A DNA stretch of 64,000 nucleotides, taken from positions 2,560,001-2,624,000 of the forward strand of contig NZ_CP011270.1 in assembly GCF_001610835.1 (NCBI RefSeq), in the 5' to 3' direction. Below, piece after piece: positions 2,661-22,393 of the stretch (position 1 is the stretch's first letter; each line of letters begins with the position of its first letter). Origin of the DNA: Planctomyces sp. SH-PL14. GTDB lineage: Bacteria > Planctomycetota > Planctomycetia > Planctomycetales > Planctomycetaceae. The notes beneath the pieces are model-generated. The model saw nothing but the letters and a program-made list of their open reading frames with translations, did not search any database and was not told the DNA's origin. The translations under genes were made by a program, and so were the position numbers.

Positions 2661-2680
2661 CCGACTACTCTGGTGAAGCC

Positions 2681-4728: not shown

Positions 4729-6735
4729 ATGCACGAGCCCATTTCCATCCGCGCGGCACTGACCTTCGATGAGAAGGACCCGGACGTTTTTGCGATGGAC
4801 GCCTACGACGGCGGCCGGCTGCATGTCGACGGGTATGACGCTCCGGTCGTGATCGATCTGGTTGGCCTCCGCCAGCCGGATCAGGTCAAGGCGAAGCTCG
4901 AACACGGCGACACCGTCGGTCACCAGGAGCTGGTCGAGATCGCCGCCACGAACATTCGCACGCGGGGCCGATTGAGCGTTCCGGGGGGACCGAAGGACCG
5001 CATCAAGGCGGCCCAGGCCGGCGGGTTCAAGTGGGATGCTTCGATCTGCGTCGACCCGGACCAGGGTCGCATTCAGCCGGTTCCCCGCGGGAAGTCGGTG
5101 CAGGTCAACGGGCAAACGATTCACGGTCCCGTCCACGTTGTTCGGGCCGGTGTTCTGAAGGAAGTCTCCTTCGTCGGTGTCGGCGGTGGGAGAGGCACAA
5201 AGGCGGTCGTGCTGGCTGCCAGTCTTGCAACTGAAGGAAAGCAGATGACGACCGCAGTGGACACCCCCGTTCAGGACCAGGAGCTGGCGACGCAGCTGAA
5301 CGAACAGCAGACCGTTTCGGCCGCCCTGCAGAAGCGGCTCGACGCCCTGGAGGCGGAGAACACCCGCATGCGGGCGGACGCTCTCGGGCGCGAGGTCGAC
5401 GAGTACGCCAAGCAGTACAACGCGAACCCCGAAGTTGCGGCCAGCATTCGGACGAACGTCATGTCGGGCAAGATTTCGCTCGACTCGGGGAAGCTGGCCA
5501 TCGTCGAGGCCGCCCTGCCGAAGGGTGAGGGGCGGATGCCTTGGACGGGCCCGATCCACTCCAAGACGCCGGAGCTCGACCAGCCGACCGTCGAAGCGGC
5601 CCTCCTCAAGCAGCTGGGGTGGCCCGACGACAAGCTCGCCAAGCACTACGGCGAGAAGACGGTCAACGCGGCTCTTTCGAAGGAGAACCGCGGCTGGACG
5701 ATGATGAGCGTGGCGGACGAGATCATGTCGAGCCGTGGATCGCGGTTTCGCGGATCCCGCACCGGCGACGACTTCATCCGCGCCACGATGCGGTCGGAGC
5801 GGGAGGTGGTCGCCTCCCAAGGCTTCTCGACGATCAGCCTCACGGGCATCCTCGGCAACGTCGCCAACAAGGAGCTCATGAGCGGCTATGAGTCCGTGGA
5901 GACGACCTGGCAGAAGCTGGCGTTCATCCGGTCCGTGAACGACTTCAAGGTTCACACCGGCTACCGCCTCGACATGAACGGGTCCTACAAGAAGGTCGGA
6001 ACCGACGGCGAGCTGAAGCGGGCCGGGGTGTCGGAAGCCGGGTACTCGGTGAAAGCCGACACCTACGGAACGATCATCGCCCTGACTCGGCAGATGCAGG
6101 CCAATGACGACCTCGGCGCGTTCTCCATGCTGCCGAAGGCGATGGGACGTGCCGCGGCGATCCGCCTCGACGAGGGCTACTGGGTTCTGTTCCTCGCCTC
6201 CATCGGGACGCACTTCGCTGCGGGCAACAACAACTACTTCAGCGGTGGCTCGTCCAACCTGCAGATCAGCTCGCTGTCGACCGCCAAGCAGATGTTCATC
6301 GACTTCGTCGATCCCAACGGCAAGCCCGTTCTCGTGACGCCGACGCTCCTCGTGGTCGGCTCGACCAACAAGGACACGGCCGACGTCCTCGCGACGGAGC
6401 GAAACCTCGTCGGCGGCTCGTCCACGGTCGTCAGCAAGAACCCGCACGCCGGCACGGTGACGCCGATCTGCTCGCCGTACATCAACAACACGGCAATCAA
6501 GGACCAGGACGGGAACGCGATCGCCAATCAGACCTCCACCGGCTGGGGGCTGCTGGCGCCGTCGAGCGACCGGTCGCCGATCCACGTCGGTTTCTACCGC
6601 GGGAATCAGGTCCCGATCATCGAAACGGCTGACACCGTCTTCTCGACGCTCGGCATGGAGATGCGGGGCTACCACGACTTCGGGTTCGGTCTCGGCGAGA
6701 CGACCGGGGGCGTTTGGAGCAAGGGTGCGGCCTAA
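4729..6735 (+). CDS. Prohead protease / major capsid protein fusion
   Basis: A 668-residue protein. The first 165 residues look like a phage prohead protease: an early RAALTFDE segment, a His-containing LEHGDTVGHQEL region, and GPVHVVRAGVLKEVSFVGVG near the end of the domain. Residues 173-230 are a charged, Gln/Glu-rich coiled coil typical of a scaffold (delta) region. Residues 300-668 resemble the Mu gpT-type major capsid protein. Fusions of this kind are known in phages and are self-processed during prohead maturation. An in-frame ATG at 5245 has its own SD-like sequence and could give a separate scaffold-capsid product. The fold assignment is by pattern and gene order. Confidence 0.8.
   Translation: MHEPISIRAALTFDEKDPDVFAMDAYDGGRLHVDGYDAPVVIDLVGLRQPDQVKAKLEHGDTVGHQELVEIAATNIRTRGRLSVPGGPKDRIKAAQAGGFKWDASICVDPDQGRIQPVPRGKSVQVNGQTIHGPVHVVRAGVLKEVSFVGVGGGRGTKAVVLAASLATEGKQMTTAVDTPVQDQELATQLNEQQTVSAALQKRLDALEAENTRMRADALGREVDEYAKQYNANPEVAASIRTNVMSGKISLDSGKLAIVEAALPKGEGRMPWTGPIHSKTPELDQPTVEAALLKQLGWPDDKLAKHYGEKTVNAALSKENRGWTMMSVADEIMSSRGSRFRGSRTGDDFIRATMRSEREVVASQGFSTISLTGILGNVANKELMSGYESVETTWQKLAFIRSVNDFKVHTGYRLDMNGSYKKVGTDGELKRAGVSEAGYSVKADTYGTIIALTRQMQANDDLGAFSMLPKAMGRAAAIRLDEGYWVLFLASIGTHFAAGNNNYFSGGSSNLQISSLSTAKQMFIDFVDPNGKPVLVTPTLLVVGSTNKDTADVLATERNLVGGSSTVVSKNPHAGTVTPICSPYINNTAIKDQDGNAIANQTSTGWGLLAPSSDRSPIHVGFYRGNQVPIIETADTVFSTLGMEMRGYHDFGFGLGETTGGVWSKGAA
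5233..5247 (+). promoter_or_regulatory. Possible internal translation start in the protease-capsid gene
   Basis: GAAGGAAA at 5233-5240 sits four bases before an in-frame ATG (5245-5247, codon 173), exactly where the protease domain ends and the coiled-coil scaffold begins. Lambda uses a nested start of this kind to make scaffold Nu3 from the C gene. Use of this site is inferred only. Confidence 0.35.
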
Positions 6736-6805
6736 GCCTGAGGCCACGAGCCCGCCGGGTGTTCTGGCGGGCATTTCCTGACATTCGGAGTTTCAAGGAA
6801 CAGAC

Positions 6806-7486
6806 ATGCCTCAAGCATTCTTCCACCAGGGCACGCCGCTCATGGTCGACCACACTCCCGGCGGAGCGGTGGCGGCTGGCGACGTTGTCGTCACGGCGGA
6901 TTCGGTCCGCATCGCCCACCTCCCCATCGCCGCCGGTGACCTCGGGGCCCTGGCCGCGGGTGGCGGGGTCTACATGGTCGCCGGTGACGCGGCGATCGCG
7001 GCCGACAAGGTCGTTTATTGGAACGACTCCGCGAACAAGGTCACCGAGGATTCGAGCGCCGGCAAGGTGTTCGGGATCACGGTCACGGCCTGCTCCGGGG
7101 ACGCTGCTCTCTTTGCGGTCCGGCACATCCCGACCGCCGACAAGGGCATGTCCGGCCGCGTGGTCGCTCGTACCGCCGACTTCACCCTCACCGCGGCGGA
7201 CTCTGGCTCCATCCAGACGTCCGTCGGAGCGACGGGAACGATCACGGCCTCCCTGCCGCCGGCAACGGTCGGGCTGGAGTTCAAGTTCCGCGTCGGTGCC
7301 GCCCAGCAGTTCCGCCTCGACCCGAACGGCACGGAAGTCATCGCCCTGCCGTCCACGGGCGTTGCCGGAGCGGCCGGCAAATACCTCGTCGCCGACGCCG
7401 ATGGCGAGACGGTCTACCTCGTCTGCACGAAGGCTGGCCAGTGGTCGGTCTTCGGCTTCACGGGGACCTGGACCGCCGAAGCCTAA
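6806..7486 (+). CDS. Capsid decoration protein, DUF2190-like
   Basis: A 226-residue protein directly downstream of the capsid gene, start supported by AAGGAA. The first 105 residues carry the DUF2190 pattern of paired small-residue strands (GDVVVTADSVRIAHLPIAAG and then GVYMVAGD), seen in capsid-stabilising proteins encoded next to major capsid genes. The remaining residues form a second beta-rich part with ITASLPPATVGLEFKFRVG, a segment common to extra capsid or fibre domains that display loops. The product probably binds the outside of the head. No catalytic residues are seen. Confidence 0.65.
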   Translation: MPQAFFHQGTPLMVDHTPGGAVAAGDVVVTADSVRIAHLPIAAGDLGALAAGGGVYMVAGDAAIAADKVVYWNDSANKVTEDSSAGKVFGITVTACSGDAALFAVRHIPTADKGMSGRVVARTADFTLTAADSGSIQTSVGATGTITASLPPATVGLEFKFRVGAAQQFRLDPNGTEVIALPSTGVAGAAGKYLVADADGETVYLVCTKAGQWSVFGFTGTWTAEA

Positions 7487-7497
7487 GAGGGTGACGT

Positions 7498-8148
7498 GTG
7501 AGCATCGTTTCGGACGCTCAGGACGCTGGACTGGAAGCGCAGCGGGGGGTGATCGGATTGGATTCGATCATCTCCCGTGGCGCATCGACCGTTTCGCGGG
7601 TGATCGTTCCGGGATTGCTCAAGGAACACGAGCTCGGGTTCATGACCCGCGACTTTCTGGTCAAGCGGTCCGACTACTCGCTGGGCGACCCGCTCCCCCA
7701 GGACCTGATCGCCACGGAGGGCGAGACGTGGGAAGTGCTTCCGTTCGAGGGTGAGCGGGCGTGGTCTCGGTTTCAGGGGACGCCCAACTGGATCCGGGTT
7801 CACACGAAGGAAGTGGGCTGGTCCCGCGACACACTCACCTTCGATCAGCCGCGGCGAATTCTCACCGCTGGCGACCAGCGTCCGCAGTCCGACGCCTCGC
7901 AGCCCGTGAAAGGACTGGTCCGCTCCATCGGCGGTTCCGAGTCCTATCAAGGCGACATGCAGCAGATCGCGTTCACCGACTATCGGGCGATCGTTCCGAG
8001 TACCGCAGCAACCCGGGCGATCAAGCCCCAGGACAAGTTCAAGTTCACCGCCGAGGGGCGGTGCCGGACCCTCAACATCATGGCGGTCCGGGATCCGGGG
8101 ACGAACGGCTCCGTCCTGTACCTCGAATGCCGGGAGCAGATGAATTGA
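7498..8148 (+). CDS. Phage head-tail region structural protein (unknown family)
   Basis: A 216-residue protein with a GTG start preceded by AAGAGG at ideal spacing. Lies between decoration and head-completion genes in the same direction, so it is probably a structural or head-tail connector component. No family motif recognised. The C-terminal 60 residues (DKFKFTAEGRCRTLNIMAVR and on) look like a small beta-barrel, which would fit a head-tail adaptor. The next about 88 bp before the following gene carry no convincing separate gene. Confidence 0.55.
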   Translation: MSIVSDAQDAGLEAQRGVIGLDSIISRGASTVSRVIVPGLLKEHELGFMTRDFLVKRSDYSLGDPLPQDLIATEGETWEVLPFEGERAWSRFQGTPNWIRVHTKEVGWSRDTLTFDQPRRILTAGDQRPQSDASQPVKGLVRSIGGSESYQGDMQQIAFTDYRAIVPSTAATRAIKPQDKFKFTAEGRCRTLNIMAVRDPGTNGSVLYLECREQMN

Positions 8149-8235
8149 TCTGCCTCACCGTAGACACAGCGGCGTTGGCCGCGGCCCTCCAGAGAAATCT
8201 GGCGGCCTTGGAATCGCTGTCACGAAGGATTGAGC

Positions 8236-8652
8236 GTGAGTGTTCAAGCGGCGATCTGCGAAGTCCTGGCAGCAAACGCCGACGTCGTGGCGCTGGTCGA
8301 GCAGCGGATCCGGCCGAGCCGAATGGACCCCAACGACCCGCGTCCGTTTGTGGTCGTGAAGGCGACCGAAACACCCTGGAAGGGACTGTCCGGCGGCCGG
8401 GCGAAATCCGGCGAGGCAAAGCTGTTCATGACCGCCGTTTCCGAGAGCACGGAGGCGGAGGCCCATGCCATCGCCGAGGCGGTTCGGGCGGCGGTCTCCA
8501 AGTTCCGCGGCCTGAAGAGCGACCGAATCATCACCGCGGCGTGGGAAGACGACACGGAAGGCGATTGGGACCCCGTTCAAAACGGGGGCTGTGACGGCGA
8601 CTGGTGGCTGGAGACCGTCGGTTTCGTACTCAACTGGAAGAGGCCGGAATGA
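8236..8652 (+). CDS. Phage tail-completion-like protein
   Basis: A 138-residue product. The frame also has a TTG at 8230, but GAAGGA at 8224-8229 abuts that codon and lies six bases from the GTG at 8236, so GTG is the better start. Size, an N-terminal helix with VVALVEQRI, a strand PFVVVKATET and a conserved-looking middle helix (EAHAIAEAVRAAV) fit small tail-terminator or tail-completion proteins that follow the head-tail connector in siphoviruses. The stop overlaps the next ATG (ATGA). Confidence 0.55.
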   Translation: MSVQAAICEVLAANADVVALVEQRIRPSRMDPNDPRPFVVVKATETPWKGLSGGRAKSGEAKLFMTAVSESTEAEAHAIAEAVRAAVSKFRGLKSDRIITAAWEDDTEGDWDPVQNGGCDGDWWLETVGFVLNWKRPE

Positions 8653-9212
8653 CCTCGATCACCGTCGGCCGACTCGGCGTGACGCACGTCCTGGAGGACC
8701 TGCGGGTACGTCTGCCCAAGAAGGCCATCGCCGTGGCCCGACGCGGCCTGCGGGCGGCAGTCGAGGAGATACGGAAGGGAATCGCCGCAGCCGTCCCCAA
8801 GGCCCGTACGCGAGGCCACAGCGAAGTCAGCGTGCAGCAGGCGATCGGCGGCCGGGTCTGGTCCGACGCCCGATCCAAGATCAACGCGAAGGTCGGTGTC
8901 GGCGTCGGGAAGAAGCGAGGGACCTATCGGCCGAATGCCGTGTTCCTGGCGACCGGCACACAGGTCCGATGGACCGGTTCGAAAGGCATCCGGGAGAAGA
9001 TCACGGAGCGGGTCGGCCGGGGGAAGCAGTTCAAAACGCGATGGGTTCGCGGCCGGACAGAGCAGACCGGGAATGCCCGAAAGTACCGCGGTCGAGTGTT
9101 GAAGTCGGGGATGGTTCCCCGCGGAGTTGGAAACGCCCTGCCCCTGGCTCGGCGGAAGTTCGTCGAAACCTGTAATCGCGCCTTCAAGAGGGCGGGAAAG
9201 TTGAGTCCCTGA
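8649..9212 (+). CDS. HK97 gp10-like minor tail / tail completion protein
   Basis: A 187-residue, strongly basic protein. The start at ATG 8649 is chosen because it overlaps the preceding stop (ATGA) and AAGAGG lies five bases upstream. A long N-terminal helix (KKAIAVARRGLRAAVEEIRK) followed by Lys/Arg-rich loops with Gly-Thr turns is typical of the gp10 family, which closes the tail at the neck. Its place between two small completion proteins and the tail tube agrees. Assigned from pattern and context only. Confidence 0.5.
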   Translation: MTSITVGRLGVTHVLEDLRVRLPKKAIAVARRGLRAAVEEIRKGIAAAVPKARTRGHSEVSVQQAIGGRVWSDARSKINAKVGVGVGKKRGTYRPNAVFLATGTQVRWTGSKGIREKITERVGRGKQFKTRWVRGRTEQTGNARKYRGRVLKSGMVPRGVGNALPLARRKFVETCNRAFKRAGKLSP

Positions 9213-9700
9213 TGCTCTCCAACCTTCGGATTTCCGCTCAGATCGCCGCCACCCTTTCGGCATCCCGCGTTGACGGGTCGGCCCCCAAGGTCGACTACAA
9301 CGCCGGGCTGTTCAAGAAGGTCCCGAGCGACGCGAACCTGCTCTACACGAACGGTTTCGCCATCCCGACGGCGAACTCGCAAAGCCTCGACCTCTCCGGA
9401 AGCCTACTCGACGCCCTGGGGGTGTCGTGCGTCTTCGCGAAGGTCTACGCGGTCGAGATCGTGAACCTCTCGACGACGACCGGTCAGAACATTCAGATCG
9501 GCGGCGACACGAACCACGTCCCGCTCTTCGGTGCGCCAGCGGACTATCTGACGATCGGCCCGAATGGCGTGTTCCTCGCGGCCAACTGCCTCGACGGCTG
9601 GACGGTCACCGCCAGCACCGGCGACGTCATCAAGATCGCCAACTCGGCCGGCGGCCAGACCATCAACGTCGCCGTCGCGATCCTCGGCAAGACCGCCTGA
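9212..9700 (+). CDS. Phage virion-associated protein of unknown function
   Basis: A 162-residue protein whose ATG overlaps the previous stop by one base. The sequence is beta-rich and uncharged, with a lambda-like jelly-roll feel (LSTTTGQNIQIGG, FGAPADYLTIGPNGVFL). The pattern resembles small decoration or tail-accessory proteins but I recognise no family. Co-directional and tightly packed with tail genes. Confidence 0.5.
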   Translation: MLSNLRISAQIAATLSASRVDGSAPKVDYNAGLFKKVPSDANLLYTNGFAIPTANSQSLDLSGSLLDALGVSCVFAKVYAVEIVNLSTTTGQNIQIGGDTNHVPLFGAPADYLTIGPNGVFLAANCLDGWTVTASTGDVIKIANSAGGQTINVAVAILGKTA

Positions 9701-11092: not shown

Positions 11093-12889
11093 ATGGCCGA
11101 CATCGTCTATGACCTCGCGGCGGACACAGCCAAGTTCGAAGCGGGGATGCTCAACGCGGCGGCCGGTCTCGAGAAGTTCTCCGCGGCGACGCGTGAGGAC
11201 CACACCTCCGGGCTGATCCGCAAGCTGCAGCAGCTTGAGGCCGAAACCAGCCAGCTCAAGGGGGAGTTCACTGCGGCGGAACTCGCCGTGGCCAAGTTCG
11301 CGAAGCAGGACGGCGTCTCTCCGGAAATGATCGCTCGGCTGCGGCAGGCCCACGTCGAACTGGAGGCCCAGAAGAAGCAGCTTGAGGCGAATGCCGCCGC
11401 AGAGAAGAAGGCCGCAAAGGACAAGGTCGACGCCGAGAAGGCCGCCCAGGACGCCATCGCCGCCAAGAGGCAGCAGGCGGACCAGATGGCGGAGGCCCGA
11501 CGGACCGCCCAGCAGCGAAAGGACGATGCGAACGTCGCGCGGCAACTGGAGATGCAGCGGCAGGCTCAGCAGGTCAAGGACAGCCTGCAGACCCGTGAAC
11601 AGCTCCTCGCCAAGGAACTCCTGCGGCTCCAGGAACTGCATAACCGCGGCTTGCTGACGGAGATCGAACTCAAGAAGGCGAGCGCGTCGGCCCGCGTGTC
11701 TGTCGGGGGCGGGTTCAACGGTGCCAAAGGAGGCTTCATCGCCCAGCAGGGGGCGATCGGTATGCAGGACGCGATGTCCGCCTACTCGGTCTCTGGAAGT
11801 GCTGGGATGGCGGTCTCCGCAATGGGGAACAACGCCATTCAGATGGCGAGCCTGTTCAACCCGATCGCGGGGACCATCGCGGCGATTACGGTCCTGGCCG
11901 TGCAGCTCGGAATCGCGTTCGGCAAGTCGAAGGACGAGGCGGCCAAGCTCAAGGCGGAAGTCGAAGGGATCGGCAAGGCGGTCGATCTGTGGAAAATGAG
12001 CGGCGACGACATCCTGAAGCAGCTCCCTAAGGAACAGGAGAGCCTCGCCAACAACAAGAAGGTCGACGATCGCATCGGCGGCGAGATCGCACGCCGACAA
12101 GCCGAGCGGGACAAGCTCGCCGCGGAGATCGAAAAGGACAAGAGGGCGTTCGTAGCGAAGTACGGCCCCGCCGCAATACCTCGCCACGATCGTCAAGGAG
12201 AGCTCGACCAACAGGACTCGTTCCTGGCTGGCCTCAAAGAGCATCAAGAGAAGCTGAAGGCCGAGATTACCGCGCAGCAAGTCGCGATTGATCTGGCACA
12301 GCCGGAGTTTCGGGCAGCCGGCGGCGTGGAGGGGACTCCCGAGTGGGAGGCCCGGACCGACAAAGAGCACGCCGCCGCGATGGGCGAGATGACGGCGTCG
12401 GGCGAGCTCCAGCGAATCGAAGAGGAGAAGCAGCTCAAAAAGAAGGCGGCCGACGAGGAGAAGAAGCAGAAAGAGGAACTCCTGGCCCTGATGAAGCAGG
12501 AGCAGGAGATTCAGAAGCGGCTCGCCGAGCAGGAGGCCGCCGCCGCGAAAGCCGTGAAGGACTCGCTGATGACCAATCAGCAGCGGGCCGACATGGAGGC
12601 CGATCGCCTGCTCAAGATGGAAGCCAAAGGGCTCCTCAGCCGCAACGACGTCGTCGGGGCGATGCAGAAGTACATCGGCGGCATGTCTGCCCCGCCGACG
12701 ATCGCTCAAGGCCTTGTCCGCGGGTCCGTCGAGGAAGTCCGGGCAAGCCGACTGGACGCAGCACGCTCCGAACAGCGGGAGATGATCGACAAGCAGGTTG
12801 AGACGACTCTGGCGATCCGTGAACAGACGGTCGAGATCCGGGCTCTCAAGAACAAATACGAGGCCCCTGAGACCGGGAGCGAAGCATGA
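11093..12889 (+). CDS. Tail tape measure protein
   Basis: A 598-residue protein starting two bases after the chaperone stop. Residues 40-200 are a long Lys/Glu/Gln/Ala coiled coil, residues 236-276 a Gly/Ala/Ile-rich hydrophobic segment, and residues 280-540 a second coiled coil. This layout is typical of tape measure proteins, which fix tail length and may act in DNA ejection. It is short for the class, which predicts a rather short flexible tail. It directly follows the G/GT pair, as in other siphoviruses. The stop overlaps the next ATG. Confidence 0.85.
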   Translation: MADIVYDLAADTAKFEAGMLNAAAGLEKFSAATREDHTSGLIRKLQQLEAETSQLKGEFTAAELAVAKFAKQDGVSPEMIARLRQAHVELEAQKKQLEANAAAEKKAAKDKVDAEKAAQDAIAAKRQQADQMAEARRTAQQRKDDANVARQLEMQRQAQQVKDSLQTREQLLAKELLRLQELHNRGLLTEIELKKASASARVSVGGGFNGAKGGFIAQQGAIGMQDAMSAYSVSGSAGMAVSAMGNNAIQMASLFNPIAGTIAAITVLAVQLGIAFGKSKDEAAKLKAEVEGIGKAVDLWKMSGDDILKQLPKEQESLANNKKVDDRIGGEIARRQAERDKLAAEIEKDKRAFVAKYGPAAIPRHDRQGELDQQDSFLAGLKEHQEKLKAEITAQQVAIDLAQPEFRAAGGVEGTPEWEARTDKEHAAAMGEMTASGELQRIEEEKQLKKKAADEEKKQKEELLALMKQEQEIQKRLAEQEAAAAKAVKDSLMTNQQRADMEADRLLKMEAKGLLSRNDVVGAMQKYIGGMSAPPTIAQGLVRGSVEEVRASRLDAARSEQREMIDKQVETTLAIREQTVEIRALKNKYEAPETGSEA

Positions 12890-13770
12890 CCTGCACCGTT
12901 CACGGCCAGAAACACACCGGCGGCCTGCAGCAGCAGAAAGGCGCGATCAGCGGCACAGAGTCCTGGATCGTGCGGAGCGACGATCCGTTCAACGACCGCG
13001 AGCCCCAGGTCCTGGCGGCACTCGGTGTCAGTGAAGGCGATCTCCACCCGGACGCGTTCTACGGCAACCGTGGCGTGACGTGCCGCGGCGTGATGCCGAA
13101 CCGGGACGGAGAGCGGCACCTCGGCCTCTGGGTCGTGAACCTCAACTGGGGCAACGGGGCGGAGTCGAAGCAGGAGAAAGAGCGTCGGCTCATTCCGAAC
13201 CCGCTGGAGCGCCCCCCGACGATCGAAGGCATCATCGTCCGGGAGACGAAGCCGGCCCTGAAGGACTCCGAGGACCGCGCTTACGAGAACACGGCCGGCG
13301 ACCCGCTGGAGATGACGGAAGAAGTGGAGCGGGACCAGATTCGCGTCCGGGCGAACCTGCCGATCGTCCCCGCCTGGTACGGCGCCCTTCGCCGGACCAA
13401 GAACAAAGACCCGATCTACATCTCCGATCCGATCCGCGCCGTGTTCCCCGAGGGAACGGTGCGGTTCATTCCGATGGGCTTCTCGAACCAGCGGACGGAG
13501 AACGACATCGAGTTCGTCGAAGTCAATTTTGTTCTCGACACCAACCTGGACGGCTGGGATCTGGAGATCGCGAACAAGGGCTTCAACATGCTCCGCACCG
13601 CGGACGACCGGTCGACGAAAGAGCCGATCACCGTCAAGGGGATGCCGATTCAGCAGGCCCATTGGCTCAACCCGTCGGGGCTCCTGACGACCACGCCGAC
13701 CTACATCGAGCGGAAGCCGTTCGCCGAGGCGGACTACGACCCCATCCAGGAAATCCTCGACCGAGCATGA
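12886..13770 (+). CDS. Phage tail-tip protein of unknown family
   Basis: A 294-residue protein, ATGA-coupled to both neighbours. In tail-gene order the slot after the tape measure is taken by distal tail or baseplate-like proteins. The sequence begins with a Cys/His pair (TCTVHGQKHTGG) and is otherwise beta-rich with many charged loops. I recognise no motif; the structural role is inferred from context. Confidence 0.55.
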   Translation: MTCTVHGQKHTGGLQQQKGAISGTESWIVRSDDPFNDREPQVLAALGVSEGDLHPDAFYGNRGVTCRGVMPNRDGERHLGLWVVNLNWGNGAESKQEKERRLIPNPLERPPTIEGIIVRETKPALKDSEDRAYENTAGDPLEMTEEVERDQIRVRANLPIVPAWYGALRRTKNKDPIYISDPIRAVFPEGTVRFIPMGFSNQRTENDIEFVEVNFVLDTNLDGWDLEIANKGFNMLRTADDRSTKEPITVKGMPIQQAHWLNPSGLLTTTPTYIERKPFAEADYDPIQEILDRA

Positions 13771-16100
13771 GCGACGGAGTTCTAGTCCCGAGGTCGGTCT
13801 ATGACGTCCTCCTGCAGATCGTGCGTGAGCGGACGATCCAGACGGGTGCGCAAGGGCAATCGCCAGCGGCGAATGTGCTTCCGCTGCATCACGCCTTCGC
13901 GACTCAGCAGATCAACTCCAAGACGTGCGGTGTCGTCCGTCTCGATTCGATGGACTCCTCGGAAACGGTCAACGCCTACAACCCGGGCGGCATGATCGCT
14001 CAGGACCGCCGCGTAACCGTGTTCTTCTCCCGGGGGATCGAGGTCAGCCGGTGCGAGGGAGCGGAACTCCCTGGCGTGGAGGGACAGTGGGAGATCATCC
14101 GCGGGCTGAACGAAGACGATGAGACGTTCGGCTACGACCTCCGCGGGGTGTCGTGCGACGACTGTTACGAAGGGACGGTGAGCGAGGACTGCGCGTCGGT
14201 CGGCTGCTGCCGGATCAATGAGATTCGGCAAGGCTTCTGGGGAATGTATCTGGCCCCCAGCGAGCCGGACGCACCGAACATCTACTGGGAGAATGCCTCC
14301 CTCGCCTCGCGGTTCTATCACGTCGGGAACTGCATATGGGAAACGAAGACGTTTTCCTGGTACGACCCGGACGCCTGTGACGCTCGGTACAAGTACGTCC
14401 TCAATCGTCCTCTGCGGAAGCTGACGATGGAGCTGGCGTCGGGGACGCCCTGCAAGGAGATCGTCGCGGAGTGGGAATTCGCCGACGAGGAGCGGTTCAT
14501 CGACTGCCTCTGCGCTTGGCGTCTGCGGCGAACGAAATGGTCCGAGGCCCTGAGTCCCATCCCGTGCGAGATCCTGATCTCGGCGAAGGTCTACCCGCCG
14601 GACGAGTTCTTTGGCTGCGACCGCTGCACGACGGAGCTCGCCGAGCAGACGATCAACTTCCCATCGGAGATTTACGCGGACCTGTCCCCGGCGCCGGACC
14701 GCTTCGGCTACCTGACGGGAACGCCGCCCCGGATCCCCATTGAGCAAACGCCGGCCGGGTGGCAGGGGAACTACACCCTGCGGGACGACATCCCGTTCAT
14801 GCTCTATCCGGCCTTCGCCAACTTCGATCCGGATCCGGAGAACGAAGGCTTCGACCTGTGCAATCGCCGCTGGGCGTACCATTACATCTCCGAGGCCTGC
14901 GAGTCGGAGGAGTACCGGCCGGAGGGAACGGGGACCGGCACGGGCACTGGAACCGGGACTGGAACGGGTGGCGGTTACAACCAGTGCGAAACGCTCGGCT
15001 ACCCCTTCGCGTGGTCGAACGGGCTGATCGTCTGGATCTATGACGACCTCTTGGCCGAGGAGCGGCGTTTCAAGCTCAAGGCAGAGATGGTTTCGCGGGA
15101 CTGGACCCTGGGAAGCCCGGGACCGTCGGAGTTCGCGAACTTCGAATCGGAGGTCTGGTATGACTGCGAACTGCTCAAGCGGATGATCGACAACGGGGAG
15201 ACATTCGCCCTCCCCTGCGTCTCTGTGGGCTCGCTCGACGACCGATTCACGGTCGAGGACTTCGGCGACCTCGCAATCACCTTCAAGCCGAAGAACCTGC
15301 TTGCGGCCGGTGACGGCAAGAACTGCGGGGAAGGCGGGACGGGCACCGGGACTGGAACCGGAACGGGGACTGGCACAGACACCGGAACGGGAGACGGAAC
15401 CGGCACTGACACTGGCGGGGGCGGCGGCACCGACACCGGCGGCGGAGGTGGGACGGGGACCGGAGGAGGTGGCACCGGGACTGGTGGGGGAACGGGAACC
15501 GGAGGCGGTGGCACAGGAACGGGCGGAGGAGGGACCGGCACGGGTGGCGGCGGAACTGGTACGGGGGGAACTGGAGGCGGGGGCACGGGCACCGGGGGCG
15601 GAACTGGGACCGACACGAGCTCCGAGGATCCGACCGGCGCCTGCTGCTTCGAAGGCTGGGGCAATGCGACGAACTGCCTTGATGGCGTGACGAATGCCCA
15701 GTGCCAGACCCTCGGCATCAGCAACCGCGTTTTCACGCCCGACGCAGCGTGCGGTGACATCGAATGCGGCTCGGGTGGGGGCGCCGACTGCGACGCCTGT
15801 CACGACGCCTCCCTCACGATGGAGTCTCTGTACGGCGGCGGAAACGCGATCGTCACGAACCCGATGGCGGGGCTCCGCCGGTGGGTCTGGGACTTCGTGG
15901 TGGAGGGGCGGACCTGGAGTCTGTTCCTCGACTGCACCGGGACCGGGGACTACGTCGCGGCCCTCTTCATCGCCGGGGGCCCGTGCCACGGCTACCAGAC
16001 CTTCAACAGCCTGTCGGTCCTCGACTGCGACCCGCTCTCGATCACCGTTTCCTTCACCGACTGCGAAGGCGGTTCGCACACGTTCTTCTGTTTTGACTGA
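13767..16100 (+). CDS. Large Cys-rich phage tail protein with Gly-Thr linkers
   Basis: The start at ATG 13767 overlaps the previous stop (ATGA) and gives 777 residues. Three globular parts are joined by two Gly-Thr linkers: a short one (about residues 386-403) and a long one (about residues 523-617) made of GTGTGT and GGGGTGT units. The first part is Cys-rich (CDDC, CC, CDRC). The C-terminal part starts with TGACCFEGW and has Cys spacing like planctomycete GACC repeats. No enzyme motif seen. Gly-Thr spacers would let domains swing, as in an adhesion or host-range protein. The repeat tract is prone to length change. Confidence 0.6.
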   Translation: MSDGVLVPRSVYDVLLQIVRERTIQTGAQGQSPAANVLPLHHAFATQQINSKTCGVVRLDSMDSSETVNAYNPGGMIAQDRRVTVFFSRGIEVSRCEGAELPGVEGQWEIIRGLNEDDETFGYDLRGVSCDDCYEGTVSEDCASVGCCRINEIRQGFWGMYLAPSEPDAPNIYWENASLASRFYHVGNCIWETKTFSWYDPDACDARYKYVLNRPLRKLTMELASGTPCKEIVAEWEFADEERFIDCLCAWRLRRTKWSEALSPIPCEILISAKVYPPDEFFGCDRCTTELAEQTINFPSEIYADLSPAPDRFGYLTGTPPRIPIEQTPAGWQGNYTLRDDIPFMLYPAFANFDPDPENEGFDLCNRRWAYHYISEACESEEYRPEGTGTGTGTGTGTGTGGGYNQCETLGYPFAWSNGLIVWIYDDLLAEERRFKLKAEMVSRDWTLGSPGPSEFANFESEVWYDCELLKRMIDNGETFALPCVSVGSLDDRFTVEDFGDLAITFKPKNLLAAGDGKNCGEGGTGTGTGTGTGTGTDTGTGDGTGTDTGGGGGTDTGGGGGTGTGGGGTGTGGGTGTGGGGTGTGGGGTGTGGGGTGTGGTGGGGTGTGGGTGTDTSSEDPTGACCFEGWGNATNCLDGVTNAQCQTLGISNRVFTPDAACGDIECGSGGGADCDACHDASLTMESLYGGGNAIVTNPMAGLRRWVWDFVVEGRTWSLFLDCTGTGDYVAALFIAGGPCHGYQTFNSLSVLDCDPLSITVSFTDCEGGSHTFFCFD
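14923..14975 (+). repeat. Short Gly-Thr codon repeat
   Basis: About eight GGN-ACN codon pairs (GGGACCGG, GGCACGGG and variants) encode a Gly-Thr linker in the tail protein. The same unit is expanded near 15334. Confidence 0.8.
15334..15615 (+). repeat. Long Gly-Thr / Gly4-Thr codon repeat
   Basis: About 280 bp of GGN/ACN codons with a few Asp codons (GAC) interspersed; the unit drifts from GT to GGGGTGT. Synonymous variation between copies shows that it is not a recent perfect expansion. It encodes a flexible linker of about 94 residues. Confidence 0.85.
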
Positions 16101-16103
16101 CGC

Positions 16104-17318
16104 ATGGGACAGCAACTCCTTCCACGAATGGCCGCCCGGTTGGCTGATAACTCTCAGCCGAAGGCGGAGCGGCTGCGCCTCGCGATGGGCTGGCATCGGC
16201 AGGGCTTCGACTGCGTCGAGGTGATCGCCTTCCTGAGCACGGGGAAGGAAGTCGACGTCGAGGCGATCCCGATTGCTTCGAAGCCCACCCGCCTCTCTCG
16301 TCCTGGCCAGTTCCGCCCGTCCTACGGCGTCGGCCGCCGGGTCAAAGAGGCGATCGGCCTCACGACGACCTGCCCGCTCTGCAACGCGACGCTTGAGGAG
16401 ATGAACAACCTCGGACCGCTCTCGCTCCGCGACCCTGGCCCTCTCCACGAGTACGGCCGCCGGATGCGGAAGAACGCCGAGGCACTGGCCCGGAACACCG
16501 AGCACGCGAACTGGCTGCAGCGGCAGGCCATCTCTATCGGCCTCGCTCTCAAAGGGGTGGCAGGTTCCGAGGAATCGGCCCGCCGGATGATCCTGGAGGC
16601 CTGCGACGCCGAGGACGCCTATCTGGCTAAGCCGGTCACATGGTTTGTTGGTATCCGGACCGCGCCCCGGCAGGAGCCGACGCTGCAGCGATGCGTCGCC
16701 TCGATTGTGGCTGCTGGATGGACGCCGACGATCTTCGCCGAACCGGGGACCGACCTCTCCGGGCTCGAGGAACTCCCGATCGTCCAGCGGCCCCAGCGGC
16801 TCGGCGTCTGGCACAACTGGTACGACCTCCTGAAGGGGGCGCTGACCGGCACGGCGGAGCAGATCCTTACTTTCGAGGACGACGCGATCATGGTTCCCGG
16901 CGCCCGGGAGTTCGTTGAACGCTCCGGGGTCCTCGCCGAACCGCGGCTGGGCTTCGCCTCTCTCTACACGTCGAAGGTCTACCACCAGGAGACGGCCGGC
17001 TGGCACCGGGTCGAGGCCGAGCGACTGTTCTGGGGAAGCGTGGCTCTCGCGATGCCCCGGAGCTCCGTCGAGAAGTTCGTGAAGCATCGAATCGCGATGG
17101 GCTGGAAGGGGATCAAGGGGAACCAGGTCGCGCCGGACATCTGGGGCGGAGACGTCTGCGTGGCGCGGGTCTGCCATGACCTCGGCCTGTCGAAGTGGGT
17201 CCATTCCCCCTCGCTGTGCCAACACGTCGGAGACACGTCCACGATCCCCGGGCATGTTCGGGCGATCGGCAATCGGCGGGCGAAGGCGCTGGCCGTTCTC
17301 ACCGGACCGGAGGAATGA
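16104..17318 (+). CDS. Putative glycosyltransferase encoded among phage tail genes
   Basis: A 404-residue protein. Residues 1-175 are of unknown type with a CPLC pair at 90-93. Residues 177-390 look like a GT-A fold glycosyltransferase: strand TWFVGIRTAPRQ, an acidic EDD triplet at 258-260 after the hydrophobic strand ILTF (metal and sugar-nucleotide binding in this class), AxxMPRSSVEKFV, and a C-terminal PSLCQHVGDTST segment resembling the HxG(x)S element of several transferase families. Gene order would make it a tail accessory. It could modify fibres or host surface sugars. No SD precedes the ATG. The GT assignment is by pattern only. Confidence 0.6.
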   Translation: MGQQLLPRMAARLADNSQPKAERLRLAMGWHRQGFDCVEVIAFLSTGKEVDVEAIPIASKPTRLSRPGQFRPSYGVGRRVKEAIGLTTTCPLCNATLEEMNNLGPLSLRDPGPLHEYGRRMRKNAEALARNTEHANWLQRQAISIGLALKGVAGSEESARRMILEACDAEDAYLAKPVTWFVGIRTAPRQEPTLQRCVASIVAAGWTPTIFAEPGTDLSGLEELPIVQRPQRLGVWHNWYDLLKGALTGTAEQILTFEDDAIMVPGAREFVERSGVLAEPRLGFASLYTSKVYHQETAGWHRVEAERLFWGSVALAMPRSSVEKFVKHRIAMGWKGIKGNQVAPDIWGGDVCVARVCHDLGLSKWVHSPSLCQHVGDTSTIPGHVRAIGNRRAKALAVLTGPEE

Positions 17319-17321
17319 ACA

Positions 17322-18110
17322 ATGGGAAGCCTGAGCAACTACGCCGAAAACGAACTGCTCGACCACGTCTTGAAGGTCGGGGCGTTCACGCAGCCGAGCA
17401 ATATCTACGTTGCCCTCTCGACGGCCGATCCGACGGAAGGAGGCGGGAGTATCGCCGAACCCTCCGGCGGGTCGTATGCCCGGGTCGCGTGCAACACCTG
17501 GAACGCTGCGGCGAGCCGATCGACCGCCAACACGAACGCGGTCCAGTTCCCCAGGGCGACCGGCAACTGGGGCACGATCACCCACTGGGCGCTCTTCGAC
17601 TCGCTCACCTCCGGGAACATGCTCGCCTATGCGGCACTGTCCAACCCGTCCTCGCTGGTCGTCTCGACCGGTCGCCGGCCACGGTTCATCGCCGGCAGTC
17701 TCGTCCTGACCTGGGTGGCCAACGGGGTCTCGGACTACTTGGGGAACAAGCTTCTTGACCATCTGCTGAAGGGGTCGGCGTACTCGGTTCCGACGAACCT
17801 CTACGTCGGCTTCTCGACGGCAAACCCTACCGACAACGCGTCCGGCCTCGCCGAGCCCAGCGGGAACAACTACAGCCGGACCGCCCTCAACTCCTGGAAC
17901 GCGGCCAGCGGCGGCGCGACGGCGAACGCCGCGGACTTCGAAGGGCCCGCGGCCTCGGGGTCCTGGGGGACGCTGACGCACGCCGCCGTCTTCGACGCCT
18001 CGACGTCGGGGAACATGCTCCTGCACGCCGCTGTCGGTGCGTCCCTCACGATCACGCAGGGACTCTTCCCGGAGTTCGAAGCCGGGGAACTCGACGTCAC
18101 ACTGAACTGA
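17322..18110 (+). CDS. Phage tail fibre protein with duplicated domain
   Basis: A 262-residue protein made of two homologous halves of about 130 residues. Each runs LLDH-LK..(A/S)(F/Y)..P.N(I/L)YV(A/G)(L/F)STA(D/N)PT, SYAR or NYSR, W-NAA, GTxTHxAxFD, TSGNML. The unit resembles a common phage tail-fibre or tail-tip module. The duplication is old, as the halves have diverged. It lies among fibre genes and probably contributes to the distal tail. Confidence 0.65.
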   Translation: MGSLSNYAENELLDHVLKVGAFTQPSNIYVALSTADPTEGGGSIAEPSGGSYARVACNTWNAAASRSTANTNAVQFPRATGNWGTITHWALFDSLTSGNMLAYAALSNPSSLVVSTGRRPRFIAGSLVLTWVANGVSDYLGNKLLDHLLKGSAYSVPTNLYVGFSTANPTDNASGLAEPSGNNYSRTALNSWNAASGGATANAADFEGPAASGSWGTLTHAAVFDASTSGNMLLHAAVGASLTITQGLFPEFEAGELDVTLN

Positions 18111-18117
18111 GGAACTG

Positions 18118-19071
18118 ATGGCCGACACGGTCCGCGCGATGTCTGCGTTTCTCGACCCGTCTACCGGCTACTTCCGGAACGGGGCGGGGATCTCCGCGCA
18201 GAACGAGCGGGACCTGATCGTTTCGCTGAACGACTTCGGCAAGACGGTCTGCGGCCGGCTCACGCTGGAGAGCGGGACGCCGAACAAGATCGGGGACGTG
18301 ACCGGGGCGTCGACAATCTACCTCGCCCCTTGGCGCGGCGACACGGTCACGATCTGGAACGGCTCGCTGTGGGTGCCGTACAAGTTTGCCCAGCTGTCGC
18401 GATCCCTCGCGTCGCTGACCAGCGGCAGGAACTACGACGTCTTCGCCTACCTCTCCTCGGGGGCGGTCGCAATCGACCTCGCGCCCGTCTGGACGAACGA
18501 CACGACTCGCGACAAGGCGGTCAGCCTCAAGGACGGAATCTGGGTCAACGACGTCAGTTTCACGGCCGTGCGGTCGGGGGACTCGGTCGGCCAGTACCAG
18601 GGGACGCTTCTGGGAACGATCCGGACCACGGGGACCAGCACAACGGAGGATTCGGCGGTCCGACGATTCGTCTCAAACCTCTGGCATCCGATCCGGAGGC
18701 ACTTCTACAGATTGGACACGACGTCGCACACCTACTCGGTGAACAGTCCTGTCCGTGGCTGGAACAACCAGAGCACGCACACGCTGGAGTGGGTGACGTG
18801 CATCGCTCAGCACTCGGTATTGCTCAATTTCCAGGGGGCTTTCACGTCCTCGGGGGCTGGAACGCAGGGGGCTCGGCTCGGGATGGGGACGTCGACGACG
18901 TCTCAGAGTCTCGTGATGGACTTCAACAGCACGGCAATCCTTGGCGACGGCTTCCCGATGTCGGTGTCGGCGACGGCCGGATACGCGATCTACTACGTCA
19001 CTGAGTTGGCGACCGGGTCTGGGAACTCGACGTACTACTACTACTCCCTCGGCGGTGAGGTGTGGAATTGA
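18118..19071 (+). CDS. Phage tail fibre / receptor-binding-like protein
   Basis: A 317-residue protein. The N-terminal part (SAFLDPSTGYFRNGAG) and the central motif LGTIRTTGTSTTEDS followed by RRFVSNLWH are shared by many phage and bacterial virion-associated proteins of unknown function. The C-terminal half is beta-rich with repeated Ser/Thr/Gly strands, suited to a trimeric fibre head. It ends overlapping the next small gene. A receptor-binding role is inferred from position. Confidence 0.55.
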   Translation: MADTVRAMSAFLDPSTGYFRNGAGISAQNERDLIVSLNDFGKTVCGRLTLESGTPNKIGDVTGASTIYLAPWRGDTVTIWNGSLWVPYKFAQLSRSLASLTSGRNYDVFAYLSSGAVAIDLAPVWTNDTTRDKAVSLKDGIWVNDVSFTAVRSGDSVGQYQGTLLGTIRTTGTSTTEDSAVRRFVSNLWHPIRRHFYRLDTTSHTYSVNSPVRGWNNQSTHTLEWVTCIAQHSVLLNFQGAFTSSGAGTQGARLGMGTSTTSQSLVMDFNSTAILGDGFPMSVSATAGYAIYYVTELATGSGNSTYYYYSLGGEVWN

Positions 19072-19522: not shown

Positions 19523-20884
19523 ATGCCCGCCGACTTCTCCTCGATCGACTACACCGTCCCGGACTACCGCATCGACCGGAAGTTCTCGGCGACGATCGCC
19601 TGCGCGGTCTCGACGTCGGGCACCCTGCAGGCCGGAGCCCCGACCTCAGCCACGGCGGCCGGAGCGACGTCCGCGACCGGTTCCGCCCTGCTGGGCGCGG
19701 CCCTCTCGGCCACAATCGCCGCGGAGTCCGCTGCCGATGCGACGCTTGAGGCCTCCGCCCCGATGTCCGCCTCGTTCGATGCCCAGGTCTCGGCGACCGG
19801 CGGAGCCTCCTGCGGCATTCCTGGGGCGTGCGTGATCGATGGAAGCTGCTCCGCATCCGGTGGGCTGTCGGTCGGCGTCCCGACTTCGGCGACCATCGAG
19901 GGGGAAACGACCGCCTCCGGATCCGCTCAGGCCGGTCTCACCGCCTCCGCGACGGTTCAGGGGGAAGTCTCGACCAGCGGGACCGCGATCACCGGGGTGC
20001 CGGCCTCGGCCACGATCAGCGGGGATCTCTCCGCTGCGGGAAGCCCCTCCGCCGGTTCCCCCCTGTCGGCGACCATCGCCGGAGAGACAGACGCATCCGG
20101 AAGCCTGCAGGCGGGACAGCCGACGACGGCGACGTTCAGCGGAGCGACAGCGGTCGACGGAACACTGGGGGCGGGAGAAGCCCTCACGGCTACGATCGCG
20201 GCCGAGCTCAGCACCTCCGGCCAGATGGGGGCAGGACTCGCCGCCGAGGCCTCGATCGAGTGCGAGGTCTCCACCGCCGGGACAATGGGGCTGTCCGCCT
20301 CCCTCGAATGCACGATCGCCGCCAGCGTGACGGCATCCGGCCAGATGACGGCAGGAGCCGCAGCGACCGCGACCATAGCGGCTGAAGTGTCGGCGACCGG
20401 TTCCCCCCTCTGCGGCGCCGGGACCTCGGCCACGATCGCCGGGGAGATGCAGGCGTCGGGATCCGCTCAGACGTCCGTCCCCCTCCAGGCCACCGCCGTC
20501 GGCATCTGCGAGGCGACAGCCTCCCCCCAGTGCTCCGTTCCGACTCAGGCCACGTTCGTCATCGAGTCGTCCGCCGTGGGTCGCCTGGTGGCGTCTCTAC
20601 TCGCCTCCGCCCGGATCGAGGTTGAACTGTCGGCGACCGCCGAGGGGATCTACTTCGACGTGGAAGCGGAGGGGAAGTATTCCGCCGCCCAGGACCGGCC
20701 GCGCTTGTACCGGGCTGCCGGTGCCACCCGAACCGGTCGCGCTCGCCCCCGTCCGAGGCTCACGACCGCCGCCGGTCGGACGCGCCTCGCTCTCGCCCGG
20801 GAACGATTTAGAACCTACCGCCACCGCGGGCAGCTCCGAGTCGGAGGCCATCCGCGACCAACCGGGAGCCCCCCATCGTGCTAG
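19523..20884 (+). CDS. Fibre-like protein built of about seventeen 20-residue repeats
   Basis: A 453-residue protein. From residue 17 to about 360 it consists of an uninterrupted 20-residue repeat (consensus SATIAGEVSASGSLQAGxPT) with no insertion or deletion between copies, so the DNA has a strict 60-bp period. Such strict length conservation is typical of a solenoid or beta-roll fibre where each turn packs on the next. The last 75 residues are unlike the rest, being Arg/Pro-rich and basic. Gene position after tail fibre genes suggests a virion fibre or a surface-binding extension. No match to a named repeat family is known to me. Confidence 0.65.
   Translation: MPADFSSIDYTVPDYRIDRKFSATIACAVSTSGTLQAGAPTSATAAGATSATGSALLGAALSATIAAESAADATLEASAPMSASFDAQVSATGGASCGIPGACVIDGSCSASGGLSVGVPTSATIEGETTASGSAQAGLTASATVQGEVSTSGTAITGVPASATISGDLSAAGSPSAGSPLSATIAGETDASGSLQAGQPTTATFSGATAVDGTLGAGEALTATIAAELSTSGQMGAGLAAEASIECEVSTAGTMGLSASLECTIAASVTASGQMTAGAAATATIAAEVSATGSPLCGAGTSATIAGEMQASGSAQTSVPLQATAVGICEATASPQCSVPTQATFVIESSAVGRLVASLLASARIEVELSATAEGIYFDVEAEGKYSAAQDRPRLYRAAGATRTGRARPRPRLTTAAGRTRLALARERFRTYRHRGQLRVGGHPRPTGSPPSC
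19602..20640 (+). repeat. 60-bp tandem coding repeat, about 17 copies
   Basis: Copies begin near each SATI-type codon block and keep a 60-bp spacing across more than 1 kb. Copies vary at many synonymous and non-synonymous sites, so the array is old or diversified. It encodes the 20-residue repeats of the fibre-like protein. Confidence 0.85.
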
Positions 20885-21394: not shown

Positions 21395-22393
21395 ATGCAG
21401 GCTTCACGCGATGTGTTCGTCATCATGCCTTTTTCCGCAACGGCGTCATGCTCGGAGGCCGACTGGTCAGACACGTACAAGAACGTGTTCAAACCCGCGG
21501 TCACACGTTTAGGCTACGAATGCGAACGCGCCACCCCGACAACTGGCAGCCTTATAGGGAGCATCTTAGAACGCCTCCGAAATGCGCGAATTGTCTTGGC
21601 CGATGTGACTGATCGCAACGCTAACGTGTTTTACGAGCTTGGTGTGCGACACTCCCTTAGCCGAAGGACAATCGTAGTTGCGAGGGGGATGAATCATATT
21701 CCTTCCGACCTCAGCGGATACTGGACGACGATCTATGGAACGAAGCCAGGCGAAGTGGTCGATTTCTGCGAGAATGTGAAACACATCATTGAACGCATAG
21801 AGCGCGAACCGGACCGGAGTGACAGTCCAGTCTCAGACTTCCTGGATCGTGAGTGGCTAAACGCGGAGAGAGCCTCCGGCGTGCAGAATGTGAAGAAAGT
21901 CAATGCCTTGTGCACCGAACTTTCAGGCACAATCGCCGCGATCGAGGCATTTGACAAAGGACAGAGGGCGGCGAGTCGTACCATTTCTCTTGAATGCCTA
22001 AACTTATTGCTGACCACGCTCTATTTGGATCTTGGACCTGACCTGCTCCGCGAGGCATACGAACTTCGCAATTACCTGTTAATTTTTGGAACTGATGACC
22101 ACAATCCAGGCACGTTGTTGCGATGCAAGCTTTTTTTAAGCAATATGGATTTGGTACGCCGCAAGATGATGGAAGGCTCGTATACCGAACCTTCCACGCT
22201 GTCAACGATGCGTTGGGAGCCAGCCAAATCTAATTTCATGTCGTCACGATGCGCCCTACAAACGCAGCTGTCGTCAATTATGCTCCACTTCGCCGAATGT
22301 TCAGATCGGCCCGACTTGGGCAATCATCATGAGGAGCCCGGCAGTAAGAAGCAAAAGTCCGCCAAGCGTAGGGGCAAGAGCAACCCATCGTGA
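21395..22393 (+). CDS. TIR-like / nucleotide-binding domain protein, candidate defence effector
   Basis: A 332-residue protein. The N-terminal 135 residues follow the pattern of a predicted nucleotide-binding fold related to TIR and nucleoside deoxyribosyltransferase domains: VFVIMPFS strand and turn, IGSILERLRNARIVLADVT, a NANVFYELGVRHSL segment with the likely catalytic Glu, and a late strand IPSDLSGYWTTIY. Residues 150-332 are helical and of unknown type, ending in a Lys-rich tail. Proteins with this N-terminal fold occur in bacterial immune systems as NAD or nucleotide hydrolases. The gene is clearly lower in GC than its neighbours and follows the phage structural run, which fits an acquired cargo gene. 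The enzyme activity is not proven by sequence. Confidence 0.6.
   Translation: MQASRDVFVIMPFSATASCSEADWSDTYKNVFKPAVTRLGYECERATPTTGSLIGSILERLRNARIVLADVTDRNANVFYELGVRHSLSRRTIVVARGMNHIPSDLSGYWTTIYGTKPGEVVDFCENVKHIIERIEREPDRSDSPVSDFLDREWLNAERASGVQNVKKVNALCTELSGTIAAIEAFDKGQRAASRTISLECLNLLLTTLYLDLGPDLLREAYELRNYLLIFGTDDHNPGTLLRCKLFLSNMDLVRRKMMEGSYTEPSTLSTMRWEPAKSNFMSSRCALQTQLSSIMLHFAECSDRPDLGNHHEEPGSKKQKSAKRRGKSNPS

Follow-up and report, generated by a model that had tools for sequence, protein, structure and literature searches.

Genomic context of the glycosyltransferase-like gene

A gene resembling a glycosyltransferase lies among the tail genes of a prophage of Planctomyces sp. SH-PL14, which raises the question of what such an enzyme would do there and which molecule it would modify. 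The DNA analyzed (below, the window) is a stretch of 64,000 nucleotides corresponding to bases 2,560,001–2,624,000 of the complete 8.44 Mb genome. A provirus entry in IMG/VR (L002) covers the same stretch with 100% identity. In the 5' part of the module, genes encoding portal, head maturation protease/major head protein, and head decoration proteins were identified, and weak PHROGs matches to head closure and tail terminator proteins were noted upstream of the enzyme gene. A tail assembly chaperone gene is located at position 10301 (phrog_344, 1.5e-11). The genes surrounding the enzyme, and the tracts of the preceding tail protein, are as follows.

11093–12889, + strand: 598-aa protein in the tape-measure position, without a tail family match of its own, homologous to genes of two sibling prophages (E 2e-63 and 3e-56)
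12886–13770, + strand: 294-aa tail protein after the tape-measure-position gene, homologous to the 352- and 362-aa proteins of the siblings (E 1.8e-35 and 9e-28)
13767–16100, + strand: 777-aa tail protein with (Gly-Thr) tracts, the proposed acceptor, ending 3 bp before the enzyme gene
14925–14975, + strand: (Gly-Thr) tract 1 within the 777-aa tail protein, 17 aa, 7 Thr
15333–15623, + strand: Gly/Thr tract 2 within the 777-aa tail protein, 97 aa, 32 Thr and 58 Gly, with mixed Gly and Thr codons
16104–17318, + strand: predicted GT-A glycosyltransferase gene, 404 aa (open reading frame, fold model and conservation)
17322–18110, + strand: Gp80-type fibre/head protein directly 3' of the enzyme (Pfam PF23140, 3e-77; phrog_240 "head protein", 1e-43)
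18118–19071, + strand: fibre-position protein common to both sibling prophages (57–66% identity)

The enzyme ORF is intact and starts with ATG; its GC3 is 0.84, and that of the neighbours is similar. The gaps on either side of it are 3 bp, and the ATG of the 777-aa tail protein gene overlaps the end of the preceding gene. The gene thus sits in the structural/tail module of a prophage, as the original prediction had proposed from the flanking genes; the chaperone gene, the Gp80-type gene directly 3' and the provirus entry all agree with this placement.

Further downstream, at 19523–20884, a 453-aa Ala/Ser/Thr-rich repeat protein (SATIAGE..ASGS type) occupies a fibre position and may be another possible glycan acceptor. 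Searches of Pfam and PHROGs gave no match for it at E ≤ 1.

Predicted fold and conserved residues of the enzyme

The structure of the window protein was predicted using an alignment of this protein with 22 viral relatives (A3). For residues 181–380, the mean pLDDT values of 10-residue segments were 76–97, with 17 of 20 segments at 85 or higher, and 131 residues of the model had pLDDT of at least 90. The pLDDT values were low before residue 170 and after residue 380. Comparison of the predicted model with PDB gave 137 matches at E ≤ 0.001. The most significant similarity was noted with POMGnT1 (5ggi; Z 17.8, 2.9 Å, 207 aligned residues), followed by GnT-I (1foa; Z 17.5, 3.0 Å, 202 aligned residues). 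Every match listed was a glycosyltransferase or contained a glycosyltransferase domain; hyaluronan synthase, WrtF, GalNAc-T2, LH3, and TarP were among them. The top viral structural match was Gp87 of the Mycobacterium phage Ardmore (E 1.2e-8). GT13 enzymes (GnT-I, POMGnT1) are the nearest solved folds, but the identity in the structural alignments is 12–17%. GT13 enzymes carry an EDD motif, and the motif of the window protein is of the EDD type too.

Conservation was assessed in 67 related domains of at least 170 residues each (20 viral and 47 genomic), and the following elements of the enzyme were distinguished.

16635–17294, + strand: putative GT-A catalytic domain, residues about 178–397 (profile match from relatives)
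16875–16883, + strand: E258-D259-D260, motif of the metal-binding type ([Q/E]DD) at the end of strand 253–258, each D present in 67/67
17151–17153, + strand: D350, Asp in 62/67, candidate catalytic base where helix 349–359 begins
17223–17225, + strand: H374, invariant (67/67), candidate metal/nucleotide-sugar ligand

Both segments named in the original prediction are present, EDD at residues 258–260 and QHVGDTS at residues 373–379 (from nucleotide 17220). The acidic triplet had been expected to be conserved, which holds for its two aspartates and fails for the first position, where Q is found in 65 of the 67 domains and E in two. The DD pair and H374 would be ligands of the metal and nucleotide, and D350 would be a candidate base. 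As judged from the model, a GT-A fold with a DxD-type metal motif at the usual strand end is well supported, which upholds the earlier assignment of GT-A-like strands, and the product of this gene very probably attaches sugars.

Sequence searches gave far fewer matches. The window protein had no match at E ≤ 1 in Pfam and PHROGs, and PDB sequences searched with a profile yielded none. When Pfam was searched with 23 family members, 11 families were matched by any member, with weak or single matches only. The GT13 model of Pfam was matched by neither the window protein nor any of the 23 members; GT25 (PF01755) was matched by one of the 23 members, at E 0.1, and not by the window protein. PHROG 854, "glucosyltransferase", was matched by five of the 23 members at E ≤ 1 (best 2.3e-7) and again not by the window protein. 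TBLASTN of the window protein and its relative from L060 against 50,697 phage records found no match. No membrane segment was detected in the enzyme, the highest 19-residue Kyte-Doolittle mean being 1.08.

Ser/Thr tracts beside the enzyme in viral relatives

The IMG/VR database was scanned with an alignment of six sequences (the window protein and five relatives), and 26 further viral contigs were found. After removal of the near-duplicates L045, L053, L056, and L062 (of L044, L052, L055, and L061, respectively), 22 viral loci were left; the window's own prophage, L002, was excluded from the counts. Under a loose rule, which accepts a low-complexity Ser/Thr(-Gly) tract if it lies in an open frame of the same strand no more than 4.5 kb away, such a tract was found upstream of the enzyme in 19 of 22 loci and downstream in none (Fisher test, 2e-9). 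Under a strict rule (within 3.5 kb), the numbers were 13 of 22 upstream, 0 of 22 downstream, and 0 of 22 upstream on the opposite strand. Since the loose rule also matched somewhere on the opposite strand in 11 of the 22 loci, it is not very specific. Three loci had no tract by the loose rule: L044 has one 3.1 kb upstream in a form missed by the rule, L046 has a short one only, and L065 has none. The Thr-rich tail protein to which the original prediction drew attention is thus an example of a neighbour that recurs beside the relatives of the enzyme.

The tract is often written CC..P-(S)n, as in CCCLQPSSSS, CCSIPSSSS, CGCCVTPSSSS, and CKCCKDDPSSSS. One locus, L042, carries (Gly-Thr)n of the same kind as the window. 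The long tract of the window is mostly Gly and is weaker than the poly-Ser cases, in which the Ser runs reach 54 (L108), 55 (L043), 60 (L059), and 159 (L061) residues. All six Ser codons are used in these runs, and the Gly and Thr codons of the window tract are mixed, indicating that it is the amino acid and not the DNA that has been kept. DNA slippage as the origin of the tracts was rejected on account of these mixed codons.

In L061, the region 2345–9382 encodes a 2345-aa protein whose 159-Ser run is unbroken and written with six codons, and this gene stands directly before a window-type enzyme gene.

Sampling of viral contigs by the DNA pattern CC..P-Ser6 was also tried. It returned 10 stretches, of which only L070 resembled a tract protein, this being a 2.2-kb piece without a glycosyltransferase match, and the approach was dropped.

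Sibling prophages of the same genome

Two further syntenic prophages were found in the host genome, L231 (G000:C1:5462500-5476500) and L232 (G000:C1:427000-441000). Their homology to the window prophage extends to the large tail protein (E 3.6e-11, residues 4–293 of the 777-aa tail protein against a 693-aa protein) and the fibre (1e-121). In both, the slot of the enzyme is occupied by a fusion of a Cys-motif core with a GT2 glycosyltransferase (584 and 600 aa; Pfam GT2, 3e-27 and 1e-26), the second part of which looks glycosyltransferase-like by eye. Outside the core, no similarity was found between the slot protein of the siblings and the window enzyme. The large tail protein of the siblings contains 10–11% Ser+Thr and has no tract. 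A GT2 enzyme in the same slot beside a tract-free protein indicates that different glycosyltransferases can replace one another in this slot and that the tract is not obligatory.

Cys-rich domain and exchangeable enzyme sets

The profile of the enzyme family also matched proteins of about 200 aa without the glycosyltransferase part. A Cys-rich domain was recognized with the core G.G.EL..C.C..M[ND].WG...C, in which G, three Cys, M, W, G, and I are invariant among 28 sequences. The domain is fused N-terminally in at least eight viral window-type enzymes; elsewhere, it is encoded between the tract gene and the enzyme, and the GT2, GT25, or GT1-group enzymes, sulfotransferases, and methyltransferases of related modules often follow it. 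Pfam gave single weak matches only and no family, and TBLASTN with the L148 domain as the query found no match among 50,697 phage records. The predicted model of the domain is mostly helical (pLDDT 82.8, pTM 0.48). It had no PDB match at E ≤ 0.001 (best 2.1), and a second comparison gave a best Z of 4.2, values that do not by themselves prove a new fold.

The 175-residue N-terminal part of the window enzyme had been left unassigned in the original prediction. One element of it resembles the core of the Cys-rich domain.

16317–16430, + strand: possible divergent Cys motif core, residues 72–109 (GVGRRVKEAIG..CPLC..MNNLG), weak

In this element, L replaces W and the third Cys is missing. Residues 1–176 alone scored 7.0 bits for the domain, the full protein scored 4.6–5.3 bits, and the best of 200 shuffled sequences scored 5.1, so that the statistics are weak. 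BLASTP against the sibling prophages gave E 8e-4 in a database consisting of the siblings' own proteins only. The N-terminal part of the enzyme may contain a divergent copy of the domain.

Where the domain is encoded by a separate gene (L140–L147), a poly-Ser protein is located 161–706 bp upstream in seven of the eight loci (all except L143), and short tract matches are present on the opposite strand in five of the eight. Downstream, L140, L141, and L147 encode GT25, sulfotransferase, GT2, or methyltransferase domains. In named planctomycete genomes, 30 loci of the Cys-rich domain were collected, among others from Rhodopirellula rubra, Rubripirellula obstinata, Stieleria tagensis, Aporhodopirellula aestuarii, and Roseiconus nitratireducens. 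An upstream tract of 169–514 residues was found in 18 of the 19 best loci; in 17 of these 19, a homologue of the tape-measure protein lies upstream, and in 18, a GT25-type enzyme is encoded downstream. For all 30 loci, the tract was upstream in 21, downstream in two, and on the other strand in two, and four of the remaining loci start no more than 1.1 kb from a contig end. These GT25 (PF01755) enzymes of planctomycete prophages, which follow the tract protein and the Cys-rich domain in tail modules, belong to a family separate from that of the window enzyme. The named-genome loci and those with G handles overlap (for example, L145/L234 and L276/L242), so the two sets are not independent.

For viral contigs, the best 80 of 262 stretches with the Cys-rich domain were grouped into 44 clusters. 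By the loose rule, the tract was upstream in 25 clusters, downstream in seven, and on the other strand in five. After a post hoc split into 22 clusters with the full-length domain and 22 with the core only, a tract was found in 18 versus 7, and three of the core-only clusters have long tracts.

The pair of a poly-Ser protein and the Cys-rich domain was also observed in L258/L202, a contig filed as a Porticoccaceae MAG. Porticoccaceae is a gammaproteobacterial name, and this occurrence means that the pair may not be limited to Planctomycetes.

Tape-measure loci as a sample chosen by neither enzyme nor tract

A sample chosen neither by glycosyltransferase nor by tract was obtained from matches to PF10145 in 248 genomes of the class. 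These matches gave 42 places, of which 37 were examined; the loci L280, L289, and L299 (too short), the second G004 copy, and G260:1042073 (identical with the tract-bearing locus L146) were excluded. Six of the 37 loci bear a tract, and in all six a glycosyltransferase follows it, five being found with fixed BLAST queries and the sixth, L269, by Pfam (GT1 group, GT2).

The number of tract-free loci with a glycosyltransferase depended on the search: it was 2 of 31 with the fixed BLAST queries and at least 6 of 31 with phmmer (L264, L267, L270, L278, L283, and L296). The Pfam family totals for 138 proteins (four GT1-group, four GT2, and the GT8 of L270) correspond to about 9 of 31, a figure which is no bound because it refers to the best 25 of 77 Pfam families, with single-member ones, such as the GT8 of L270, outside. 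L275, L281, and L287 contributed no scanned downstream protein. The Fisher test of the difference from 6/6 gave 0.002 at 9/31 and 0.008 at 12/31; when four similar loci were counted once, the values were 0.037 at 9 and 0.076 at 12. The association of tract and glycosyltransferase in this small sample points in the expected direction. The presence of a glycosyltransferase in at least six of 31 tract-free modules indicates that the tract is not needed for the presence of the enzyme.

In three of the planctomycete tape-measure loci without a tract (L264, L267, and L270), GT2, GT1-group, or GT8 + methyltransferase enzymes are encoded downstream.

Copies of the enzyme family in bacterial genomes

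Matches to the window protein were found in 17 of 99 genomes, that is, in 16 of 98 besides the host. In one of the 16 (G079), the match covers residues 6–48 only, and the glycosyltransferase part is present in 15 of 98. These 15 genomes, the 26 further viral contigs, and the predicted GT-A fold indicate that the similarity is more than a chance motif. By the strict rule, a tract lies upstream of 5 of 59 genomic copies (the window, two in L025, L030, and L108) and downstream of none. By the loose rule, it was upstream in 10, downstream in 11, and on the opposite strand in 15 of 52 loci, which is no excess. Several genomic loci show no phage genes in gene lists read by eye, and most genomic copies appear to be chromosomal. 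As far as seen, the tract accompanies copies in a phage context.

Outside the phage context, copies of the family are paired in L026, L028, and L029. Such copies lie near genes of about 1480–1520 codons in L028, L029, and L036; the large gene of L028 combines kinase, nSTAND1 NTPase, and FGE-sulfatase domains, and a GT1-group part is fused to one member of the L028 pair. The paired copies together with the large gene look like a host conflict or regulated system.

Proposed function

Modification of a virion protein best accounts for the slot in the tail operon, for the tract-bearing neighbours, for the exchange of one enzyme family for another, and for the sulfo- and methyltransferases that accompany them. 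Sulfo- and methyltransferases in general decorate glycans. The best reading of the locus is a cassette for O-glycosylation of a virion protein with exchangeable enzymes. We consider it probable, with some reserve, that a virion protein is the substrate of the window enzyme, the likeliest single choice of acceptor being the Thr residues within the (Gly-Thr) tracts of the preceding tail protein. The enzyme would be a soluble, metal-dependent GT-A glycosyltransferase, made together with the tail proteins and active in the cytoplasm of the producing cell. With a nucleotide sugar as the donor, it would glycosylate hydroxyls of the virion protein, presumably those of Thr in the adjoining 5' tail protein. 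The resulting glycan-coated flexible stalk could serve for protection or receptor contact. Judging by the relatives, the Cys-rich domain might dock the enzyme on the acceptor or assist the tract protein.

A wider generalization seems to us about evenly balanced between right and wrong. It states that phages of Planctomycetes, and perhaps of other bacteria, carry in the tail operon a modular "sugar-stalk" cassette. The tail protein of the cassette would bear a Ser or (Gly-Thr) tract that can reach several hundred residues, a new Cys-rich domain would serve for docking, and an exchangeable set of glycosyl-, sulfo-, and methyltransferases would coat the tail tip with mucin-like glycans. Swapping of these sets at the same slot between the prophages of one host would allow fast variation of the sugar coat. 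If this is true, virion glycosylation could be predicted from sequence in a large uncultured group, and O-glycosylated Ser/Thr stalks, together with the enzymes and a docking domain that act on them, would be available from a compact bacterial source; one would then also have to ask why the tails of planctomycete phages are coated. In such a cassette, a very unusual candidate acceptor, with poly-Ser of up to 159 residues in a row written in all six codons, would be paired with its own enzymes.

Alternative explanations

The enzyme may act on another virion protein, namely the Gp80-type protein (17322–18110), the fibre (18118–19071), or the repeat protein (19523–20884), with the tract being a flexible linker. 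The sibling prophages, which have the homologous fibre and no tract, also carry a glycosyltransferase in the slot, and the 453-aa repeat protein equals the tract protein in the best 40-residue window of Ser/Thr content (38% each). This explanation is nevertheless rather unlikely: in the viral loci, the same-strand tract recurs upstream in 19 of 22 cases and downstream in none, and the tract sequences differ greatly yet are kept at the amino acid level.

Phage glycosyltransferases are often of the lysogenic conversion kind, and the window enzyme could likewise alter a surface glycan of the host and block superinfection. In this direction point phrog_854, the nearest PHROG of some relatives, which is classed as moron/auxiliary/host takeover, and the occurrence of relatives in host chromosomes. 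The tight position in the tail operon with 3-bp gaps, the lack of a membrane segment, and the absence of a flippase-type match among 15 neighbouring proteins (seven compared with Pfam and PHROGs, eight with PHROGs only) make conversion decidedly unlikely.

The position of the gene between tail and fibre genes would also suit a catalytically dead glycosyltransferase-like fold with a structural or carbohydrate-binding role in the tail tip. We regard this as very improbable, given the conservation of D259, D260, and H374 in 67/67 and of D350 in 62/67 domains; moreover, the slot of other tail modules holds other glycosyltransferase families, accompanied by methyl- and sulfotransferases, which fits enzymes and not structure. 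Glycosylation of modified phage DNA bases, suggested by a structural match of rank 31 to a TET-associated glycosyltransferase domain protein of phage phiRSL1, is hardly credible in view of the tail-module position, the recurring Ser/Thr-tract neighbour, and the absence of a base-modifying partner among the 15 neighbours (Pfam/PHROGs).

Comparison with known systems

To our knowledge, glycosylated phage particles have been described in few cases, those met here being mycobacteriophages. Virion glycosylation in mycobacteriophages reportedly involves Che8 gp110 and Corndog gp38 (Freeman et al. 2023, as cited in PMC12363180 and PMC11256854), and capsid and tail-tube proteins are reported to be glycosylated (PMC12363180). 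In the related F1 phage Maravista, the genes are described as lying close to the 3' genome end (PMC11256854). Mycobacteriophages are a precedent for phage-made virion glycans. They share with the window prophage a phage-encoded glycosyltransferase; unlike in Maravista, the window enzyme is encoded inside the tail operon, beside a Thr-tract protein.

In the serine-rich repeat systems of Gram-positive bacteria, the first enzymes, GtfA and GtfB, are GT-B enzymes that carry an additional acceptor domain and whose genes belong to the same cluster, unlike the window enzyme with its predicted GT-A fold. A Ser/Thr-rich surface protein is reported to be O-glycosylated in these systems by dedicated glycosyltransferases (PMC6973325, PMC5207161, and others). 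The likeness to our loci lies in the neighbourhood, a Ser/Thr-rich protein being encoded beside glycosyltransferases, and this protein is the presumed acceptor. Serine-rich repeat proteins are cell adhesins exported by an accessory Sec system, whereas the proteins considered here are phage tail proteins accompanied by another small domain. Serine-rich repeat adhesins may serve as a working analogy. No description of a tail cassette combining a Ser tract and a glycosyltransferase was found in the literature covered (titles and the beginnings of abstracts, with preprints and most subscription papers outside the scope).

Other features of the region

At the end of the structural module, a gene with low GC3 (21395–22393) encodes a 332-aa protein. 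By eye, the start of this protein resembles a TIR-like/nucleotide-binding fold, and the gene may be defence cargo. In addition, a PF10145 tape-measure match was found at G000:C1:2521845-2522447 (L302), about 38 kb before the start of the window, which may indicate yet another prophage of this genome nearby.
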